Virus record (IMG/VR): IMGVR_UViG_3300024177_000012
Location: 1 to 35,681 of that record
DNA length: 35,681 nucleotides
Source: a virus
Strand: one strand, 5' to 3'
Part shown: in pieces, positions 15,727 through 23,981 of the stretch
Layout: each line of letters begins with the position of its first letter
How positions within the stretch are numbered: position 1 is the first letter of the stretch
Translations under genes and position numbers: made by a program
Notes under the pieces: generated by a model
Told to the model about the DNA's origin: nothing
Databases searched by the model: none
What the model saw: only the letters and a program-made list of their open reading frames with translations

Positions 15727-16800
15727 ATGGCAATTCCGTCAGCTTTGACGTTGAATTATGATGCCGTGCTCAGCACGACACTATTCAACTATCACAAAAA
15801 TATCGAGGACCAGATCAGTACCTCGAACTTCTTCCTGTATAAAATCATGAAGATGAATTCGATGTATGAGACGGTCAGCGACTTGGGCGACCGCGCACAG
15901 ATTCCGCTCATGTATGCCTTGGGTACGGCGGATTCCTATTCGGGATACGATCAGTTGGATACGACCCCGATGGACGGCATCACTTCGGCATTCTGGAATT
16001 GGGCGCAATGCGCGATTCCGATTGCTATTTCCGGCCTGGATGAGAAGAAGAATTCCGGCTCCGATACCAAACTGGCCGATCTCTTGAAGGCCAAGACCAA
16101 GCAGGCGGTGCTCGGAATTCAGGACTATTTTGGCCGCGCCTTGCTGCAAGGGAACGGTCCCAATACGGCAACGGCAATCACCACGGGCCGCACGTCTCCG
16201 AATAACGGTTCGGTATTCATCGACCCGCTGGCTTTGCTCGTGAAGTACGATCCGACCACTAGCACGACCATCGGGAACATCAACCAGAGCACCTATTCAT
16301 GGTGGCAGAATCAGAGCAAATCCGGCGGCTCCGGGGCTACGACTTATGCGGGCTTCCTCACGGAAATCTCGCACCTGTTCAATCAATGCTCCATCGGACC
16401 CGGCGGCTCTCCCGATGTCCACCTGACCGATCAGAGCACTTTCGAGTTTTACGAAGGCGCTCTCCGTTCGCAGAATCGCTACAACGACTATCGCAAGGCC
16501 GATATTCCGTTCGAGAACCTGGTGTTTCGCGGCCAGCCGGTCACATGGGATCAGTTCATTCCCGATGTGAAGAATGGCACGATCACTCAGTCCACCGCGA
16601 GCGGAACATGGTACATGATCAATTCGCAGTTCTGGAGCTTGAAGTATCACTCGGATACGAACTTCACTCCGACCCCGTTCATCAAGCCGGAGAACCAGGA
16701 TGCGAAAGTCGCTCAAATCCTCTGGTTGGGAGCATTGACCGTTTCCAACCGGCGCAAACATGGAGTGCTGGGCGGTATTACCACGACCATCGCATCCTAA
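15727..16800 (+). CDS. Major capsid protein
   Basis: 357 aa, immediately downstream of the scaffold. The sequence begins MAIPSALTLNYDAVLSTT and has an N-terminal helix followed by a strand-rich region (SDLGDRAQIPLMYALGTADS), a long central helix around TKLADLLKAKTKQAVLGIQD, and a C-terminal region that ends in WLGALTVSNRRKHGVLGGIT. This order fits the HK97 fold (N-arm, E-loop, P-domain spine helix, A-domain). No cleaved pro-domain is seen, which agrees with a separate scaffold. GGGG lies before the ATG. Position and length make it the strongest capsid candidate. Confidence 0.88.
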   Translation: MAIPSALTLNYDAVLSTTLFNYHKNIEDQISTSNFFLYKIMKMNSMYETVSDLGDRAQIPLMYALGTADSYSGYDQLDTTPMDGITSAFWNWAQCAIPIAISGLDEKKNSGSDTKLADLLKAKTKQAVLGIQDYFGRALLQGNGPNTATAITTGRTSPNNGSVFIDPLALLVKYDPTTSTTIGNINQSTYSWWQNQSKSGGSGATTYAGFLTEISHLFNQCSIGPGGSPDVHLTDQSTFEFYEGALRSQNRYNDYRKADIPFENLVFRGQPVTWDQFIPDVKNGTITQSTASGTWYMINSQFWSLKYHSDTNFTPTPFIKPENQDAKVAQILWLGALTVSNRRKHGVLGGITTTIAS

Positions 16801-16849: not shown

Positions 16850-16897
16850 GCCGAGGCTTCCCCATAACCGGGCTTGCGCCCAAGGAGGATCACTACC

Positions 16898-17344
16898 ATG
16901 ATGTTTCAACGGATCAACGCTGGAACCGCCGAGCGCGTATTCCAGATTGTGTTTAACGTGGCTGGCGGCACGGTGACGGCAAACTACCCGGTTTGCTGGG
17001 ATCAGTCATCCACGGCTGACGGCGTGCGCGTGACTCAGCCGATCACGGCGAATCTCTCGCTGCTGGTCGGTATCGCCACTGCCGACATCACCAACTCATC
17101 GTATGGAAAGGTTCAGTGCTACGGATACCGCGCAAGCGCATTCGTAACCGCTGACACTTCTCAGGCGGTGAACAATGGCGACATCCTGATTCCCGTAACG
17201 GGCCAGTATTACTTGACCCGCTCGGCGGCTTCGGATGGCAAGAGCGGATTCATCTATGCGGCAGGCGGCTCCGGCACCATCGCCTATGCGACGATGACCA
17301 CGCCTGTTGCGGCCAACAAGGCCGTCCTGATTCGGATGCTGTAA
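16898..17344 (+). CDS. Capsid decoration or head-associated protein
   Basis: A 148-aa beta-rich protein (VFQIVFNVAGGTVTANYPV; TANLSLLVGIATADI; GYRASAFVTAD) ending in a small-residue stretch (TMTTPVAANKAVLIRML). Genes immediately downstream of the capsid gene that encode such Ala/Thr/Gly-rich beta proteins are commonly cement/decoration proteins. No catalytic motif. The ATG at 16898 (ATGATG) is preceded by a strong GGAGG. Alternatively it could be a head-fibre base; confidence for structural role is moderate. Confidence 0.65.
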   Translation: MMFQRINAGTAERVFQIVFNVAGGTVTANYPVCWDQSSTADGVRVTQPITANLSLLVGIATADITNSSYGKVQCYGYRASAFVTADTSQAVNNGDILIPVTGQYYLTRSAASDGKSGFIYAAGGSGTIAYATMTTPVAANKAVLIRML

Positions 17345-17413: not shown

Positions 17414-17436
17414 GCCCCTGAGCCGCAATCAGGGGC
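17414..17436 (+). other. Stable stem-loop in leader of the modification cassette
   Basis: GCCCCTGA and TCAGGGGC pair perfectly over 8 bp with loop GCCGCAA. It lies between the head-associated gene and the cassette, just before GGAG and the ATG at 17453. A-rich, not T-rich, sequence follows, so it is unlikely to be a normal rightward terminator. A preceding GGAAG-G-CTTCC dyad (17403-17413) adds structure. Confidence 0.5.
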
Positions 17437-17452: not shown

Positions 17453-17602
17453 ATGGCAACCAAACCACACGAAGCAAAAGTACCGAAGGCGCATCCGCCA
17501 ACCGTTGATGATCTATTGAAGCGAATCGAAGCTCTCGAAGCGCGTCTATCGCATGTGGAGAATTCCACCGGATTCAAGAAGCATGAGGAACCAACGGCCT
17601 AA
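17453..17602 (+). CDS. Small coiled-coil protein upstream of radical SAM gene
   Basis: A 49-aa protein with a basic, Pro-rich N-terminus (KPHEAKVPKAHPP), a heptad-patterned helix (VDDLLKRIEALEARLSHVE) and a short polar tail. The ATG is preceded by GGAG. It ends two bases before the radical SAM gene. Its size and placement raise the possibility that it is a substrate or partner of that enzyme, as precursor peptides often precede radical SAM maturases, but it lacks the Cys- or Gly-rich core usual for such peptides. A simple trimerising structural part is the alternative. Confidence 0.62.
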   Translation: MATKPHEAKVPKAHPPTVDDLLKRIEALEARLSHVENSTGFKKHEEPTA

Positions 17603-17604
17603 CT

Positions 17605-18441
17605 ATGCCCCTGCAACTCCAACTGGAAACGAGCGCATACTGCAACGCCAAGTGCATCTTCTGTCCATATCCGACTATGAAGCGTCCGCACGGGTTCATG
17701 GATATGGCGTTGTTCCACAAGATCATTGATGATGCGGCAACCATCCCGTTGATTGAGGATATTACTCTCACGGGGTTGGGCGAGCCGCTGCTCGACAAGC
17801 GTATCGTTGAGCGCGTGCGTTACATCCGCCAGAAAGTAAAGCCGAACGTCACGGTAACGGCCTATACTAACGGAACATTTCTGACCGAGCAGATGGCCCG
17901 CGATTTGGTAGATGCTGGACTATCCATCCTCTATGTCAGCATGAACGCGATTGATGCTCGTCGCCGCAGCGCAATTATGAAGCTCGATGACTTCGATAAG
18001 GTGGTCGATCAGACCCGCAAGGCCATCGAGATATTCAAGACTTTCGGTTCCAATCAGAGTGTGGTGGTGAAGGCAATCCAGGAAAAGGACTTGATGGAGT
18101 CTACGGACCCTGAGCGGTTCCTGGAAATGTGGGGTGGGCCTGTTGATCTCGGCGGAAATGGTTTTCTGCACATGGAAGGAAATTGGGCCGGGGCCATGCG
18201 GCCCATGCGAGTCCTGCCGGAGACAGCCTGCAACCGCGCCATTGGCGAAATTATGGTGCTGTGGGATGGCCGGGTATCGCTCTGCTGCTTCGATGGCGAG
18301 GGTGAAGTAATTTTCGGGGATTTCAATAAGCAGACCATTCGGGAAGTATACAATTCAGAAAAGGCCCTCAATTACCGCGTGGCTCACGCGGAGGGCCGTA
18401 GGGGGTCGCTTCCCCTGTGTTCAACCTGTACGGCTATCTAG
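17605..18441 (+). CDS. Radical SAM enzyme with SPASM-like C-terminus
   Basis: The 278-aa protein has the radical SAM cluster motif CNAKCIFC (C13, C17, C20) for a [4Fe-4S] cluster that cleaves S-adenosylmethionine. GLGE (57-60) and TNG (88-90) match later conserved elements of the barrel. At the C-terminus C209, C227, C228, C272 and C275 are spaced as in SPASM/twitch domains that bind extra Fe-S clusters, followed by FGDF. Such enzymes modify peptides, proteins or sugars. The neighbours (methyltransferase, glycosyltransferase) favour a surface-glycan or virion-protein modification. GGAGG-type signal is weak; start by length and position. Confidence 0.85.
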   Translation: MPLQLQLETSAYCNAKCIFCPYPTMKRPHGFMDMALFHKIIDDAATIPLIEDITLTGLGEPLLDKRIVERVRYIRQKVKPNVTVTAYTNGTFLTEQMARDLVDAGLSILYVSMNAIDARRRSAIMKLDDFDKVVDQTRKAIEIFKTFGSNQSVVVKAIQEKDLMESTDPERFLEMWGGPVDLGGNGFLHMEGNWAGAMRPMRVLPETACNRAIGEIMVLWDGRVSLCCFDGEGEVIFGDFNKQTIREVYNSEKALNYRVAHAEGRRGSLPLCSTCTAI

Positions 18442-18450
18442 TGGAGGAAA

Positions 18451-19083
18451 ATGCCGCGACTCAACGGTCAAGTATTAGATGAGATAGTTCAACCAATCAT
18501 CCCGCCAGCGGATATTCGCTTTCAGGAAAACTTCGGGAAGTATATGGGCAAGCGCAACCTGAATGTGGGGGCTGCGCTCCGAAGATTCACGCGGTTTATT
18601 CATCTCGACTGCGATCCTCGCACACAACCGGACATCCTGCATGACCTTGAGGTAACGCCGCTTCCATTCCCTGATAATGAGTTTGACTGCATCATGGGGA
18701 GCCATGTATTCGAGCACATCAAGAACTTCGTGCCGCTCATGGAGGAGTTTCATCGCATCCTGAAACCGGGCGGTTATCTCATCGGCATTACGCCATATAT
18801 GACCTCAAACGATGCTTGGGCCTGCCCGCACCATGTTCGGGCATTCGATGAGAATACCTGGTATTATTTTGACCAGAACCTTTATACCGAGCAGGAGATT
18901 GATTCGGCTGGGTACGGAGCTTGGCAGAACTATCGCGCAAACTTCAAGGTTGAGCAGGTGATTCTCATTCCCTACGAAGAGCAGTTGCAGTGCGCTCAGG
19001 AAAACCCTGTGGAGTTCGAGTTTCGCAAAAAACACTATTTCAACATCATCCGTGAGATTCACGGAATATTGAGGAAGGTATAA
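18451..19083 (+). CDS. SAM-dependent methyltransferase (class I)
   Basis: A 210-aa Rossmann-fold methyltransferase of the Methyltransf_11 type. The SAM loop is LNVGAA (37-42), a variant of LxxGxG lacking the second Gly, followed by acidic HLDCDP (51-56). DCIMGSHVFEHI (79-90) and ILKPGGYL (103-110) are the usual motifs IV and post-IV. The acceptor is not visible in sequence; nearby glycosyltransferase and radical SAM genes suggest a sugar or protein. GGAGG precedes the ATG by 3-4 nt. The altered glycine loop could reduce activity. Confidence 0.85.
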   Translation: MPRLNGQVLDEIVQPIIPPADIRFQENFGKYMGKRNLNVGAALRRFTRFIHLDCDPRTQPDILHDLEVTPLPFPDNEFDCIMGSHVFEHIKNFVPLMEEFHRILKPGGYLIGITPYMTSNDAWACPHHVRAFDENTWYYFDQNLYTEQEIDSAGYGAWQNYRANFKVEQVILIPYEEQLQCAQENPVEFEFRKKHYFNIIREIHGILRKV

Positions 19084-19365
19084 ATGGAAGATTTGACATG
19101 CGCTATCCCCGAAGGCAAAGAGGACTATATTCTCTATGCCTGCAATTCCTGCGGACGCCTGTTCGATACGGAAGCCGAAACGAAATCCATCAAGACTGGT
19201 GCAGTATGCGAATGCGGCAGCACGCGCTATCGGCCAACCAAGAATATCGACGCCGAGCAGAACGATGCTGGCGACTATGTGGTGAATGGCCGCTATAACG
19301 AGAACATCGTGATTCCGAAGGCGGTCTTCGAGTCGGTCTATAAACCTGCGGAGGTGGTTGATTGA
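19084..19365 (+). CDS. Small zinc-ribbon protein in the cassette
   Basis: A 93-aa protein with CNSCG near residue 20 and CECG near 41, a rubredoxin-like zinc ribbon, followed by a polar, Asn/Asp-rich C-terminus. It starts one base after the methyltransferase stop and overlaps the glycosyltransferase start (TTGA). Its placement inside the cassette suggests a partner or electron/metal carrier for it, though a structural role is also possible. No family name. Confidence 0.65.
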   Translation: MEDLTCAIPEGKEDYILYACNSCGRLFDTEAETKSIKTGAVCECGSTRYRPTKNIDAEQNDAGDYVVNGRYNENIVIPKAVFESVYKPAEVVD

Positions 19366-20162
19366 GCAAGATCATCTTTGCCTCCCCGACCTATGGAGCG
19401 GTGGAACCTGCGGCAATCATTTCTCAGCGGGCGGCCATTATGCACGCTGGAAATTACGGGCATCATTGGGTTGGAGATGCTTCCCCGGACAAATGTACCT
19501 TCACCGTGGCCCGTGGGAATATCGCGCAATGCGCCATTGATTCCGATGCGGATTATGTTTTCTGGTGCGACAGCGACATAGTTCTGCCGCAATATGCGAT
19601 CACGCAGCTTCTGGCCGATAAGCAGGACTTCGTAACAGGCATCTATTTCCAGAAGGTCGGTGAGCATTGGCCGCTGATTGCCAACTTCGATTCCGTCGGG
19701 AAGAAATATAACTGGATGGTGCTCTGGCCTGAAAACGTGGTTGCTCCAATCGACGGCTGCGGATTTGGCTGTGTCCTGACCAGCACGAAGATGCTGCGGG
19801 ACATTAAGGCCATGTGGGAGCGCGAGCATCCAGTGCCGCAAGGAATGACGGAGAACGAGATCAGGGAACACGCGAATCCCTGGTTCGAGTTTGCCAAGTT
19901 CAGCGAAGATTTTGAGTTCTGCCAACGGGCAAAAAGGGCTGGTTATCAACTCCATGTTGATACGGCTGTTATTTGCGGGCACCTGCCGCCGCCTCCCGCA
20001 ATCGGCTTTGACCACTTCAAGGCCAAACATCCTGAATTCTTTGGAGGCAAACAAAATGGCAATCTCAAGCAATCCAATGGACAAGCGGGAGCACTGGTTC
20101 TTCATTCGGAACGGGAGTGCGGGACCATTCAACCAGAAAGCATGGCAACGCTACCCGGCTAA
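19362..20162 (+). CDS. GT-A-fold glycosyltransferase
   Basis: The 266-aa product shows a glycosyltransferase-2-like core: the N-terminal strand SKIIFASPTYG, AR-N-xx-A (VARGNIAQCAI) and the metal-binding DxD as CDSDI (69-73) in YVFWCDSDIVLP, then SEDFEFCQRAKRAGY (181-195) carrying the catalytic-region acidic residues, and a conserved His at 207. It would transfer a sugar from a nucleotide donor. TTG start overlaps the previous stop. The conserved core ends near residue 229; the last ~35 residues are encoded in DNA that also encodes the next gene in another frame. No signal peptide, so cytoplasmic action on virion protein, DNA or lipid-linked sugar. Confidence 0.82.
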   Translation: MSKIIFASPTYGAVEPAAIISQRAAIMHAGNYGHHWVGDASPDKCTFTVARGNIAQCAIDSDADYVFWCDSDIVLPQYAITQLLADKQDFVTGIYFQKVGEHWPLIANFDSVGKKYNWMVLWPENVVAPIDGCGFGCVLTSTKMLRDIKAMWEREHPVPQGMTENEIREHANPWFEFAKFSEDFEFCQRAKRAGYQLHVDTAVICGHLPPPPAIGFDHFKAKHPEFFGGKQNGNLKQSNGQAGALVLHSERECGTIQPESMATLPG

Positions 20163-20376
20163 CATGGTGAGCTATGACCCCGCTGACCCTGATATGGATT
20201 GGGAGCCGGTTGCGAATGAGAACTTTTGGGCCGATGATCCCGGATATATTACCCAATATACTTGGGATACCGGTGGTCCAGCCAAGGTGACAAAGTTTGA
20301 ATTCATCGACGGCCCTGCACCGGACTTTATGAGCCTTGGCCTGATGGATTTCGATTACCGAGGCATCGGCGCTTGA
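20056..20376 (+). CDS. Hypothetical structural-region protein
   Basis: A 106-aa protein beginning MAISSNPMDKREHWFFIRN, rich in Trp, Asp and Pro (DPADPDMDWEPVANENFW), and apparently all-beta. The start is supported by a GGAGG 8 nt upstream, but the gene overlaps the 3' end of the glycosyltransferase by 107 nt, an unusually long overlap. It precedes the connector genes, with which it overlaps at TTGA. The role is not recognised; a virion component is likely from position. Confidence 0.65.
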   Translation: MAISSNPMDKREHWFFIRNGSAGPFNQKAWQRYPANMVSYDPADPDMDWEPVANENFWADDPGYITQYTWDTGGPAKVTKFEFIDGPAPDFMSLGLMDFDYRGIGA

Positions 20377-21035
20377 ACCTCGGGCAGATGCGGTCGGCGG
20401 TATTAACTCGATTGGGCGAGGATACCGTCGCGCCTATCTATTGGTCAGACGATGATGTAAACGAGGCCATAAATGATGGTTATGAAGAACTCTCCGATGC
20501 CTCTGAGTGGTACGAACGCAGCGCGAACATCCCATTTCTTTCCAATCTGCGGTACTTCGATCTTAGGACTGCATTGGGAGACGATACCTTCCTGTCTCCC
20601 CGCAGGGCTTTCAACCCCAACACAAACTGGTGGCTCAAGCCAAGCGATCCCCGAGACCTCGATTTCCATACCTACCGCCGATGGGAAATCAATTTGGGCA
20701 CGCCTCAAAGGATTATTCAAAGGGGCCTTTTTTATATAGGCATATTCCCGCTCCAAAATGGCGATGCCGGATTGATGAAGTTCTGGTACTCGGCCATGCC
20801 GCCAGCCTTGATCACTGACGCCGATGAGCCGCCTTTTCCTCAAGAATTTCATCAGGGGATTATCGAATATGCGCTATTCGATCTTATGGGGCAGGAGAGC
20901 CAAACCTCCAAGGCGCTCGTCCATTGGGAACAGTATCAAAAGATCGAGAACGATTTCATTCAATACGTCAATAAGCGAATTTCCACGGATAGGCTAGATT
21001 CACTCCATGAAATTTCTGTCCTCGGTCGCCAGTGA
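20373..21035 (+). CDS. Head-tail connector protein, copy 1
   Basis: A 220-aa protein whose N-terminal helices read LGQMRSAVLTRLGED then IYWSDDDVNEAINDGYEEL, the pattern of head completion/adaptor proteins that stack under the portal (gp6/gp4-like): an Arg-Leu-Gly turn, a Trp-Ser before a long helix that ends GY.EL. A helix-rich C-terminus (ALVHWEQYQKIENDFIQYV) follows. TTG overlapping the previous stop is used. It closely resembles the next gene, suggesting duplication. Order after the capsid block supports the call. Confidence 0.75.
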   Translation: MNLGQMRSAVLTRLGEDTVAPIYWSDDDVNEAINDGYEELSDASEWYERSANIPFLSNLRYFDLRTALGDDTFLSPRRAFNPNTNWWLKPSDPRDLDFHTYRRWEINLGTPQRIIQRGLFYIGIFPLQNGDAGLMKFWYSAMPPALITDADEPPFPQEFHQGIIEYALFDLMGQESQTSKALVHWEQYQKIENDFIQYVNKRISTDRLDSLHEISVLGRQ

Positions 21036-22044
21036 TGTTCTGAAGCGTCTTGGTGATACCTCCGAAAAAATATGGTCGACCACGGAAGTCAGGAATTACC
21101 TCCAAGAGGGCTATGACCAATTGGCGATGCAAAGCCTATGTTTTTGGTCGCAAGCCTACCTTGACGATAAACTGACAACCGGAAACTTCACTTCGGACTT
21201 TGAAAGCGATTGGTTTGATGGAGGCGATGTCCGCTACCGCCGATTTGCCTATACCTGCCTACTGGATGCAGATTGGGTAGCCGAAGGCGATCTCGATTAT
21301 GGCCCCACTAATCATACGGCGGGATGGGAAGGGCTTACCTATATAACCGAGGCTTATTATGTGGCCCTTGAGGATTTGCCGGATGACCTCTATGAGATTG
21401 AACGTTCCACATGGAACTATGCCCGGATCGAGCCGCTGCGTTCCGTGGAACTGGAACTAAACGATTCCCGCTATCAGTTGAATAATGGCGAAGTATTGGG
21501 GTATGCACAGGACAAGGATGGATTGGGGAAATTCCGTAAATGGCGCATCCCGTCAGCAGCGGCAGATACCTATATGATCACCGATCCATGCCGGGGAATT
21601 CTCCGCAATCCGAGCGATATTTCAACCGAAACGGTTCACGGCTCATGGGGAATTCCCCGAAGGATACCGACTCAGCCAGCCGTGGCAGAAACATGGTGGG
21701 GACTTCCCCGCCGTCCATTCAAGGATGGACATAATACGAAGGTCGAATACTTCTCTCGCGGGAAAACATTGAACACGGATCAGCCCTTCGATCTCCCCGA
21801 CCGCTATGTTAAATATGTGCGGCATTATGCGCTCTGGAAGGCGCTCGAAAGAAACGGCCCTGGGCAGGATATTAAATTGGGGCAACACTGGAAAGGAAGA
21901 TTCGATGATGGAGTCGCCAGAATGATTCGGCGGCGGCAGTCACTTACGAGCAATCGGCAGAGAGTTTTAGGAGATACGTTGCTTCCCTTTGGCCCTCCTC
22001 CGAGGCCAAAATATCCTTGGAATTATGGGCAGGTGGTCAGATGA
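21007..22044 (+). CDS. Head-tail connector-like protein, copy 2
   Basis: 345 aa. The N-terminus (VASDVLKRLGDTSEKIWSTT, then EVRNYLQEGYDQLAMQS) can be aligned with the preceding gene around RLG, WS and GY.L, but the protein is much longer, with extra Trp/Tyr-rich beta segments and a C-terminal helical region (RYVKYVRHYALWKALERN). The start ATG overlaps the previous gene by 29 nt and matches that gene's N-terminal length. It may form a second ring below the first, as adaptor and nozzle proteins do in short-tailed phages. No catalytic motif. Confidence 0.7.
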   Translation: MKFLSSVASDVLKRLGDTSEKIWSTTEVRNYLQEGYDQLAMQSLCFWSQAYLDDKLTTGNFTSDFESDWFDGGDVRYRRFAYTCLLDADWVAEGDLDYGPTNHTAGWEGLTYITEAYYVALEDLPDDLYEIERSTWNYARIEPLRSVELELNDSRYQLNNGEVLGYAQDKDGLGKFRKWRIPSAAADTYMITDPCRGILRNPSDISTETVHGSWGIPRRIPTQPAVAETWWGLPRRPFKDGHNTKVEYFSRGKTLNTDQPFDLPDRYVKYVRHYALWKALERNGPGQDIKLGQHWKGRFDDGVARMIRRRQSLTSNRQRVLGDTLLPFGPPPRPKYPWNYGQVVR

Positions 22045-23981
22045 GCGTCATTTATGAAAAGGTAGTTGCGGAAGATTTGAACCTTGGGACCGGAACGGCA
22101 TCCGTAACCAATCCAGCAGGCGGAACACTTACCGGAACGCAGATCAATATGCAGACATTCCGGCCTCAAGCATACCAGGAAGCCGCCGCCATTTCCGGTG
22201 GTGACTTTTCTTCAAAGGTTGCCGCTGCCGCTCACAAATTGCCTTCCACTGGCGGAATCGTAGATGCCCGGGGACTCAACGCTTCGCAAGTTGCCAGCAC
22301 CGATCCATTCTCCGGTATCACCGTCCCAATACATCTGCTGTTGGGACAATGCAGCATAGCCGCCGCAACTGCTTGGAATCCTGTGGCGGGATCGAGAATA
22401 AGCGGGGATGGAACCGGACTGGCTAAACTGATATGGAGCGACCCGACCATAAACGGCATCGTCCTTCTGAGCAATAGCTCGGTTTCCGGCCTCTATCTTC
22501 AAGGTCCGAATACTGGGAACTTTGGGCAAGAGGGAACGGCGATCACTACGGGGGGAAGTTCACAGCACGACATTACCATCGAAAACAACGTAATCAGCCA
22601 ATGGAGCGGGTATTGCGTTAATACCGGAAACTCAGGGAACTATTCGATTACAATTCGGAACAACTTCTTTGATCGAACGCTTCAAGATGGCGGTGTGCTC
22701 ATTAACCCAACCATCCATGATTGCAAGGTTCAGGGCAATCGCTTCTTCCAGATCGCCTATAACGGCGTTGACATGAGTGGGTACAACAATATCGTCACTG
22801 GAAATACGTTTGATCAATGCGGATTCGATACCGCCGCCAGCGATCCGGCAACTGATCACTGGTCCATACTGATCTCTGCTTATGGAAGTCACGATGCTAT
22901 CAACAATGTAGTTTCGAATAATGTGATCAGCAATACCAGAGCATCCGGGATAGAGGTAAGGGCTTTAACCGGCCTGAATGCCTCATACAATACGATTTCT
23001 AACAACACTGTTTATAGCGGAACATCGACCGGAGCGGGGGCGGGGGCAATTGCCCTGGATGGTTCTCCTGGAGGCCATGTTGACTATAACACGGTGGTTG
23101 GAAATAGCGTTCATGGTAATTCGACGCATGGCATCGTGCTATATGGGGTCGGCGCAAGCAGCATGATCGGGAATATAGTAATGGGGAATTTGGTTACTGG
23201 AAATGCTCAGACTGGAATTCTCTTGGCCGATAACGCTATCAAATCGCCAATAGTCTCTAACACAGTTATCGGCAACAACACGAATGGCACTGCTGGACAG
23301 GGAGGGATCGTCGTTTCCTCATCTGCGGCCACGGATAACTATATCGTCGCAAATGAAGTCAGCGGAAACACCACGAATCAGGTTTTGGATAGCGGAGTCA
23401 GAACTATTTTCGGAGGCTCCGCAATTGGAAATCGCATCGTTGTTGATGGCATATCTGGAACCGCAAAGGTAATTGATATTTCCGATAAAAACTCCAGCGG
23501 TTTCGCGGCTGGATATACGCGGATTGGAACAGGGGCAGGAACGGCGGGAGATGCCCAATTTGGAATTCAGCCGACCGGAGGAGCCACGTTTGCATTCGAT
23601 GGAACGAGTAACGGAACATTTTCCAATCCAGGAATTATGCAGGTGGCGGGAACGCTGCAAATATCATCGCCTAGCAATATCACTCTTGCAAATGGGGCAA
23701 ACAATAACCTCGCAGCGACAAATAAAAGCTGGCTCAGACTTTCCGGTCCAACCGGGGCATTCAGCATTAGCGGGTTTTCCGGTGGAATTCAGGGGCAAGT
23801 CCTATATGTTTTCAATACGACATCTCAGCAAATGACCCTTAAAAATGCCACTGGATCATCGGCAGGGAATCAGATTTCTACGCTAACTGGAGCGGATGTG
23901 GTGCTTCGTGCTGGAACAAGTTTTGCCACATTTATCTATGACACAGCGTCAACTTCCTGGAACTTGATAGGGACCAATTAA
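22041..23981 (+). CDS. Tailspike-like parallel beta-helix protein
   Basis: The 646-aa protein contains many repeats of about 22-25 residues with Asn/Gly turns (for example VSNNVISNTRASGIEV, YNTISNNTVYSG, IVMGNLVTGNAQTGI), the signature of a right-handed parallel beta-helix as in tailspikes and pectate-lyase-like depolymerases. A short N-terminal head-binding region (MSVIYEKVVAEDLNLGTGTA) and a C-terminal beta-rich part, with a small-residue trimerisation-like end, complete the layout. It would attach to or degrade host polysaccharide. The catalytic residues cannot be fixed by eye. ATG at 22041 overlaps the preceding stop (ATGA). Confidence 0.82.
   Translation: MSVIYEKVVAEDLNLGTGTASVTNPAGGTLTGTQINMQTFRPQAYQEAAAISGGDFSSKVAAAAHKLPSTGGIVDARGLNASQVASTDPFSGITVPIHLLLGQCSIAAATAWNPVAGSRISGDGTGLAKLIWSDPTINGIVLLSNSSVSGLYLQGPNTGNFGQEGTAITTGGSSQHDITIENNVISQWSGYCVNTGNSGNYSITIRNNFFDRTLQDGGVLINPTIHDCKVQGNRFFQIAYNGVDMSGYNNIVTGNTFDQCGFDTAASDPATDHWSILISAYGSHDAINNVVSNNVISNTRASGIEVRALTGLNASYNTISNNTVYSGTSTGAGAGAIALDGSPGGHVDYNTVVGNSVHGNSTHGIVLYGVGASSMIGNIVMGNLVTGNAQTGILLADNAIKSPIVSNTVIGNNTNGTAGQGGIVVSSSAATDNYIVANEVSGNTTNQVLDSGVRTIFGGSAIGNRIVVDGISGTAKVIDISDKNSSGFAAGYTRIGTGAGTAGDAQFGIQPTGGATFAFDGTSNGTFSNPGIMQVAGTLQISSPSNITLANGANNNLAATNKSWLRLSGPTGAFSISGFSGGIQGQVLYVFNTTSQQMTLKNATGSSAGNQISTLTGADVVLRAGTSFATFIYDTASTSWNLIGTN

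Follow-up and report, generated by a model that had tools for sequence, protein, structure and literature searches.

The window analyzed here is a complete IMG/VR virus record (IMGVR_UViG_3300024177_000012) of 35,681 bases, possibly a genome fragment, in which a cassette of enzyme genes lies among the head genes at positions 17,453–20,162. Five open reading frames (ORFs) were found there in the order of a 49-residue protein, a radical S-adenosylmethionine (SAM) enzyme related to BtrN, a methyltransferase (MT), a zinc-ribbon protein (ZR), and a glycosyltransferase (GT), with spacings of +2, +9, 0, and −4 nt between successive ORFs. The set is flanked by a decoration-like gene on one side and by the head-completion genes on the other, all on the + strand, and the position, order, and tight coupling that the original prediction had described for it were borne out. 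The same slot of related contigs, which come from uncultured tailed phages, almost always holds a GT and an MT of the window's families, and this slot, which matters more than the cassette itself, is the larger finding. Judged from the gene families and structure models, it is reasonably probable that the cassette is a phage pathway that assembles, on a surface protein of the virion, a glycan altered by methylation and radical chemistry. It would thereby be one variant of a glycan-tailoring slot that the whole lineage has between its decoration and head-completion genes.

A fixed slot between the capsid and connector genes

Searching the viral contigs with the single sequences of the radical SAM enzyme, GT, and MT gave no matches, and alignments were needed; the GenBank phage collection gave one remote radical SAM match (24%) and two partial GT matches. 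Contig L004, reached by a search with the capsid protein, carries the four enzymes in the window's order and slot, and further contigs were found by alignment-based scans, each being counted once. Eleven radical SAM contigs reach the connector gene, namely the window, L067 (= L004), L074 (= L007), L013, L077 (= L014), L057, L063, L015, L070, L080 (= L018), and L061. The radical SAM gene lies in the window's slot, beside the decoration gene, in all of them, and the strict order of radical SAM enzyme, MT, ZR, and GT is kept in nine. A Methyltransf_24 protein stands in the place of the MT in L080, no MT was found in L061, and two other contigs (L064 and L087) carry the radical SAM and MT genes with no GT before the contig end. 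Since the order recurs among contigs whose radical SAM enzymes share 47–58% identity, the set should be regarded as far from chance. The radical SAM set was thus found together, not as single genes or in unrelated orders, either of which would be at odds with a joint pathway. Tandem doubling of the MT was observed in L074 (L007:6816–8062), perhaps for two methyl positions by analogy with A064R and A061L of the algal virus PBCV-1. In addition, L004 carries a hydroxylase/methyltransferase-like protein, recognized by eye, and then a GT–methyltransferase fusion between its portal and scaffold genes (L004:3378–5203), and therefore its phage has two such loci.

The slot was surveyed on contigs chosen by the capsid protein alone. 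This survey covered 80 loci out of 131 capsid matches in total, which were reduced to 70 after dropping capsids at least 95% identical; the capsid alignment included some members first found via the GT or radical SAM enzyme, while the scan patterns were capsid-only. Fifty of the 70 hold both the capsid and connector genes, and the following counts refer to the region between these two. A GT of the window's family is present in 48 of the 50 slots, and an MT of the window's family in 44, either as a separate protein or, in eight cases, joined to the GT in one protein. The GT matches numbered 50 in 176 kb of slot versus 5 in 601 kb of flank, which is an approximately 34-fold density. The radical SAM enzyme occupies 4/50 slots, and a ZR-like protein approximately 15/50, mostly just ahead of the GT. 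Slots without an MT-family match include that of L080 and that of L145, which encodes a member of the TylF, or macrocin O-methyltransferase, family (1e-76). Other slot genes encode a nucleotide-sugar dehydrogenase with an NAD epimerase (L073), a PhyH dioxygenase (L091), a sulfotransferase (L131), and a GT9-like protein under the cut-off (L130). Most of these other genes are sugar-tailoring, which favors a glycan over a peptide. Together with the ordered co-occurrence, such glycan-type enzymes support and strengthen the joint phage pathway originally proposed to modify a virion surface protein or its glycan, for which glycosylation itself is predicted from the genes.

Nine GenBank relatives of the capsid protein served as controls (Mx8, Mx9, Bradyrhizobium ppBjS10J-1, Stenotrophomonas BUCT555, Ruegeria 45A6, Rhizobium RHph_I3_18, and three uncultured records). 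No GT, MT, radical SAM, or ZR match was detected within 6–7 kb of their capsid genes, and the decoration protein family was missing in all nine; for Mx8 and Mx9, a profile comparison found the protein after the capsid gene to be unrelated to it. Within the lineage, L082 lacks both the decoration protein and the enzymes. The decoration protein and the enzyme slot hence tend to come together, an association that is suggestive and not a proof because the GenBank relatives are distant (23–29% capsid identity).

On trees that were quick searches with several weak forks, slot type required 12 changes on the capsid tree versus a minimum of 3 on the GT tree. Twelve of the 13 radical SAM capsids fell in one group of 19 (support 80), of which the rest comprised four long-GT cassettes, two empty slots, and one ZR–GT slot. 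The sister of the window's capsid is that of L073 (support 89), whose slot holds a long-GT cassette with the dehydrogenase and epimerase. From these change counts and this sister with a different cassette, whole cassettes appear to have been swapped at the slot between related capsids. Among the radical SAM phages themselves, the inheritance of the enzyme parallels that of the capsid (Mantel r 0.79, p 2e-4, with the outlier L070 left out). Proteins with an HNH-like pattern, recognized by eye, lie between the decoration gene and the enzymes in three contigs (L007:5149–5643, L014:3661–4173, and L075:8494–8991), and it is possible that they are homing endonucleases aiding cassette movement. Lysis-type genes also occur in the slot of some phages (L002:9912–12320 (= L083), L008:7605–8042, and L154:9227–9963), being an annotated holin and endolysin in BUCT555 and peptidase-like by eye in the others; the slot is therefore a general insertion site. 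A GT of the same family directly follows an unrelated capsid gene in L152 (MW202496.1; L152:2367–3011), hinting at the same layout in another phage lineage.

In the window, the left border of the slot is the major capsid protein gene at 15,727–16,800 (PHROG 9953, 1.3e-44), the bait of the survey. It is followed at 16,874–17,344, with a true start likely near 16,901, by the decoration-like protein, whose putative role and candidacy as acceptor come from its position; a PHROG search gave no match for it, and it is conserved behind the capsid gene in nearly every slot. The right border is a connector-like structural protein at 20,373–21,035 (PHROG 399, 5.4e-6); the genes downstream of the set encode connector-like structural proteins of PHROG 399. 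Between the GT and this connector lies a 106-residue small protein of the structural module (20,056–20,376), with homologues at the equivalent place in six radical SAM contigs, from which its model was built. A β-helix protein at 22,017–23,981 is likely a tailspike and gave a weak match to a phage depolymerase C-terminal domain (2.4e-4). The early genes of the window gave almost no Pfam matches and no clue to the host, and its promoter- and terminator-like sites were not above the level of shuffled sequence. A leader stem-loop at 17,414–17,436, which had been taken as a sign of co-expression with the capsid, does exist as a hairpin with an 8-bp stem, but it is of ordinary stability (z −1.9; 6 of 200 shuffles equally stable) and has no T-run. 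The relatives carry 12–84 nt or other genes at that place, with no comparable leader; the hairpin is probably incidental and is not informative.

The enzymes of the cassette

The radical SAM enzyme (17,605–18,441; Pfam Radical_SAM 2e-18 and SPASM 6e-12) consists of 278 residues and begins at its CxxxCxxC motif. The radical SAM cluster cysteines (C13, C17, and C20) and the auxiliary cluster cysteines (C209, C227, C272, and C275) are invariant in 16 phage homologues, and the latter four align with those of BtrN. The C-terminal domain has five cysteines, four of them at the BtrN cluster positions, and does not show the seven-cysteine, two-cluster SPASM motif of the maturases of ribosomally synthesized and post-translationally modified peptides (RiPPs). 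According to the definitions that separate seven-cysteine SPASM from twitch domains, in a superfamily whose function is hard to predict from sequence (PMC6231123), this Fe–S domain is assigned by its cysteines to the one-cluster twitch type of BtrN. The radical SAM part of the earlier radical SAM/SPASM assignment hence stood, while a full SPASM domain was replaced by this four-cysteine twitch type.

A profile search against solved structures placed BtrN first (5e-31), the cytosylglucuronate decarboxylase BlsE next (5e-12), and anSME at approximately 7e-7, and in a single-sequence search BtrN was the sole match (1.5e-16). The AlphaFold2 model of the enzyme (pLDDT 87.7) again matched BtrN best (4m7t; E 1.5e-15, TM 0.80 by target length), followed in order by BlsE, anSME, DesII, and MoaA. 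Such a best match by both profile and fold, with the BtrN-type cluster cysteines all invariant, makes it unlikely that the enzyme is a peptide maturase. BtrN oxidizes 2-deoxy-scyllo-inosamine and has a single auxiliary cluster with four cysteine ligands (PMC9012708), and the oxidation of a ring alcohol is likewise predicted for the phage enzyme. No NCBIfam match above any cut-off was obtained; a viperin-like identity was rejected, as NF038283 scored 31 bits against a cut-off of 180. An HxEGNWAG block is common to the phage enzymes and missing in four aligned bacterial relatives; placing it in the active site would be conjecture.

The closest bacterial relatives share up to 27% identity with the phage enzyme. 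Their gene neighbors encode a polysaccharide flippase, GT2 and GT4 glycosyltransferases, an MBOAT acyltransferase, NeuB, a sugar aminotransferase, and UDP-glucose dehydrogenase. Because radical SAM/SPASM genes are common in polysaccharide loci, this setting is modest evidence for a sugar role. A related radical SAM domain was also noted in a Selenomonas genome (L048:6462–8813), C-terminal in a 783-residue protein adjoining a UDP-glucose dehydrogenase gene.

The MT at 18,451–19,083 is a class I SAM methyltransferase of the Methyltransf_11 family (Pfam, 5e-12; 46.7 bits versus the cut-off of 21.2), presumed to be a sugar O-methyltransferase. The ZR follows at 19,084–19,365, its stop codon overlapping the GT start. 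Its match to a Pfam zinc ribbon is weak and under every cut-off, and the C-terminus in the window is unlike that of its relatives; C20, C23, C42, and C44 are invariant in nine relatives. The GT at 19,362–20,162, with a TTG start, is weak in Pfam (Glyco_transf_21, 8.5e-4) and was matched by PHROG 1574 (1.2e-12) and by a phage glycosyltransferase PHROG (4e-8). Both aspartates of its CDSDI motif (70 and 72) are invariant in eight relatives, and the fold list is led by GT-A proteins at low TM, with nucleotidyltransferases among them. The matches include collagen galactosyltransferases, STIV A197, GalNAc-transferases, and, weakly, domain 1 of PBCV-1 A064R (1.6e-5). The zinc-ribbon and GT-A assignments made earlier for these two proteins are therefore upheld by the four invariant cysteines, both invariant aspartates, and the leading folds. 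At 20,056–20,162 the window's GT continues for approximately 35 residues past the point where its relatives stop, and it shares 107 bp with the next ORF; either it has apparently lost its normal stop, or the sequence contains an error.

A proposed pathway and its alternatives

In the proposed pathway, the GT would transfer a sugar from the host nucleotide-sugar pool to a surface protein of the virion, with the decoration and capsid proteins as the likeliest acceptors, and the MT would O-methylate the transferred sugar. Following BtrN, a 5′-deoxyadenosyl radical would abstract a carbinol hydrogen and an electron would pass to the auxiliary [4Fe-4S] cluster, by which the radical SAM enzyme may oxidize, or epimerize, one ring position; the order of these reactions is a presumed one. 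The ZR probably docks the GT or its acceptor. The particle would then carry a rare methylated keto- or epi-sugar, which might benefit the phage through altered adsorption, shielding, or stability. Being encoded beside the decoration protein on the same strand would suit the modification of a many-copy protein. Phages that swap whole cassettes at the slot would alter their surface glycan. We tentatively picture, at somewhat less than even probability, a large uncultured lineage with a dedicated "capsid glycotype" locus, in which cassettes are exchanged beside the decoration gene and one type, with the radical SAM enzyme, makes a rare methylated virion sugar.

Several observations weigh against this pathway. 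The decoration protein shows no invariant acceptor residue across 52 relatives. Its Thr95 is threonine in 36 of the 52, within an N-x-T context in several relatives that does not extend to the window, and is a weak candidate acceptor. L081 has the decoration protein and lacks the enzymes. Nucleotide-sugar synthesis genes are missing from the window's own slot, which leaves the host as the necessary source of the donor. In the window's MT, the first glycine-rich motif is degenerate, with GAAL in place of GCGx. The predicted GT structure is moderate (pLDDT 73), and this model cannot separate a protein acceptor from a glycan acceptor because the fold scores are close, though several of the matches act on proteins. 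Finally, the identity to BtrN is approximately 20%, and with so remote a kinship the reaction could differ from that of BtrN.

A GT, an MT, an epimerase, and a sulfotransferase are also typical of surface-polysaccharide loci, where the bacterial radical SAM relatives reside, and the tailspike-like β-helix protein implies that host glycan matters to this phage. The enzymes might accordingly modify host surface polysaccharide late in infection, for superinfection exclusion or release from debris, instead of the virion. We consider this unlikely: the slot is fixed among head genes in 48/50 contigs and not placed with early or lysogeny genes, and late co-expression with the capsid genes would be poor timing for protecting the cell. 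Moreover, the slot genes scanned showed neither a membrane flippase nor a lipid-linked GT of the sort that serotype-converting gtr cassettes carry. Less probable again is a scheme in which the radical SAM enzyme and MT directly modify the side chains of amino acids in a virion protein and the GT attaches a sugar there. The coinheritance of the radical SAM enzyme with the capsid protein seen in the Mantel result would fit such a scheme, as would the fold matches to anSME and other peptide- or protein-acting SPASM enzymes, but BtrN is clearly ahead of anSME by both sequence and fold. In most slots, furthermore, the GT and MT occur without the radical SAM enzyme, in some of them fused, and the TylF-family methyltransferase of one slot belongs to a family named for a sugar O-methyltransferase.

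The 49-residue coiled-coil-like ORF (17,453–17,602, with AAGGAG just upstream) had also been suggested to encode a small protein turned into a modified peptide, that is, a RiPP-like precursor for the radical SAM enzyme, MT, and GT. It is directly upstream of and coupled to the enzymes, and many SPASM-type enzymes mature peptides (PMC9012708). However, the ORF contains no cysteine, has no Pfam match, and gave only insignificant PHROG matches, and it is absent from relatives that keep the enzymes. The gap from the decoration gene to the radical SAM gene is 12 nt in L004 and approximately 56 nt in L013 with no such ORF, and unrelated genes lie there in L007 and L014. The 49-residue protein is thus placed outside the conserved set by comparison with these relatives, and since it is not conserved the modified-peptide idea fails. 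The enzyme also lacks an N-terminal extension for peptide recognition, and its closest solved relative acts on an aminocyclitol; we regard a precursor role as highly improbable and already mostly refuted. Hypermodification of phage DNA bases with sugar and methyl groups against restriction is just as improbable. GTs and QueE-type radical SAM enzymes do serve phages in DNA modification, but here the MT belongs to the small-molecule Methyltransf_11 type, the radical SAM enzyme resembles BtrN, and the genes lie in the head module. The searches made showed no likeness of the GT to DNA glucosyltransferases, and none of the genes scanned was recognized as base-hydroxylating.

Comparison with known systems

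A virion glycan pathway of the kind proposed would resemble known systems in part. The closest arrangement is that of the cluster O mycobacteriophage Corndog, in which gp35–gp38 include an O-methyltransferase and glycosyltransferases among structural genes and for which methyl and glycan modification of the capsid was proposed (PMC4351075). Corndog, Che8, and Myrna were later reported to have glycosylated virion proteins (PMC12363180). GT and methyltransferase genes inside a structural operon are shared with the present phage. Corndog differs in that the genes lie between the portal and protease genes, include several GTs with no radical SAM enzyme reported, and represent an isolate-level observation in contrast to a lineage-wide slot; the likeness to the window's genes is one of arrangement, with no sequence kinship implied. 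In PBCV-1, A064R joins two GTs to a sugar O-methyltransferase for a methylated capsid glycan (PMC9614988). A GT-A glycosyltransferase joined to a sugar O-methyltransferase is the likeness to A064R/A061L, along with the weak match of the GT model described above, whereas PBCV-1 is an algal virus with an N-glycan of many sugars and no radical SAM enzyme. BtrN, the twitch-type aminocyclitol dehydrogenase of butirosin biosynthesis, shares the four auxiliary cysteines and the lack of an N-terminal extension with the phage enzyme, and differs in its antibiotic-pathway substrate and in lacking the phage enzymes' own HxEGNWAG block.

The genomes of the Campylobacter phages CP220/CPt10 (PMC2853527) and of marine T4-like phages (PMC5332604) were reported to contain several radical SAM genes, of which some belong to an exchangeable module. 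These genes were read by the authors as metabolic or Fe–S-related, and were not described in a fixed head-gene slot with a GT and an MT. A literature search covering few subscription papers, and hence not conclusive, found no radical SAM enzyme described in a virion context. If the pathway is true, it would be the first radical SAM step in virion modification as far as this search showed, and it would bring to the virus particle a radical SAM sugar chemistry known until now from the biosynthesis of antibiotics and related compounds. Phage particle glycosylation is documented for few isolates, chiefly mycobacteriophages, and it would become a near-universal, genetically fixed trait of a whole environmental phage lineage, in which cassettes are exchanged in a manner reminiscent of serotype switching. 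With four genes and a candidate acceptor, the gene sets are small enough for the idea to be tested directly. Compared with Corndog-type systems, the new elements suggested by these genes are a slot fixed across a lineage, the exchange of cassettes within it, and a putative radical SAM step.

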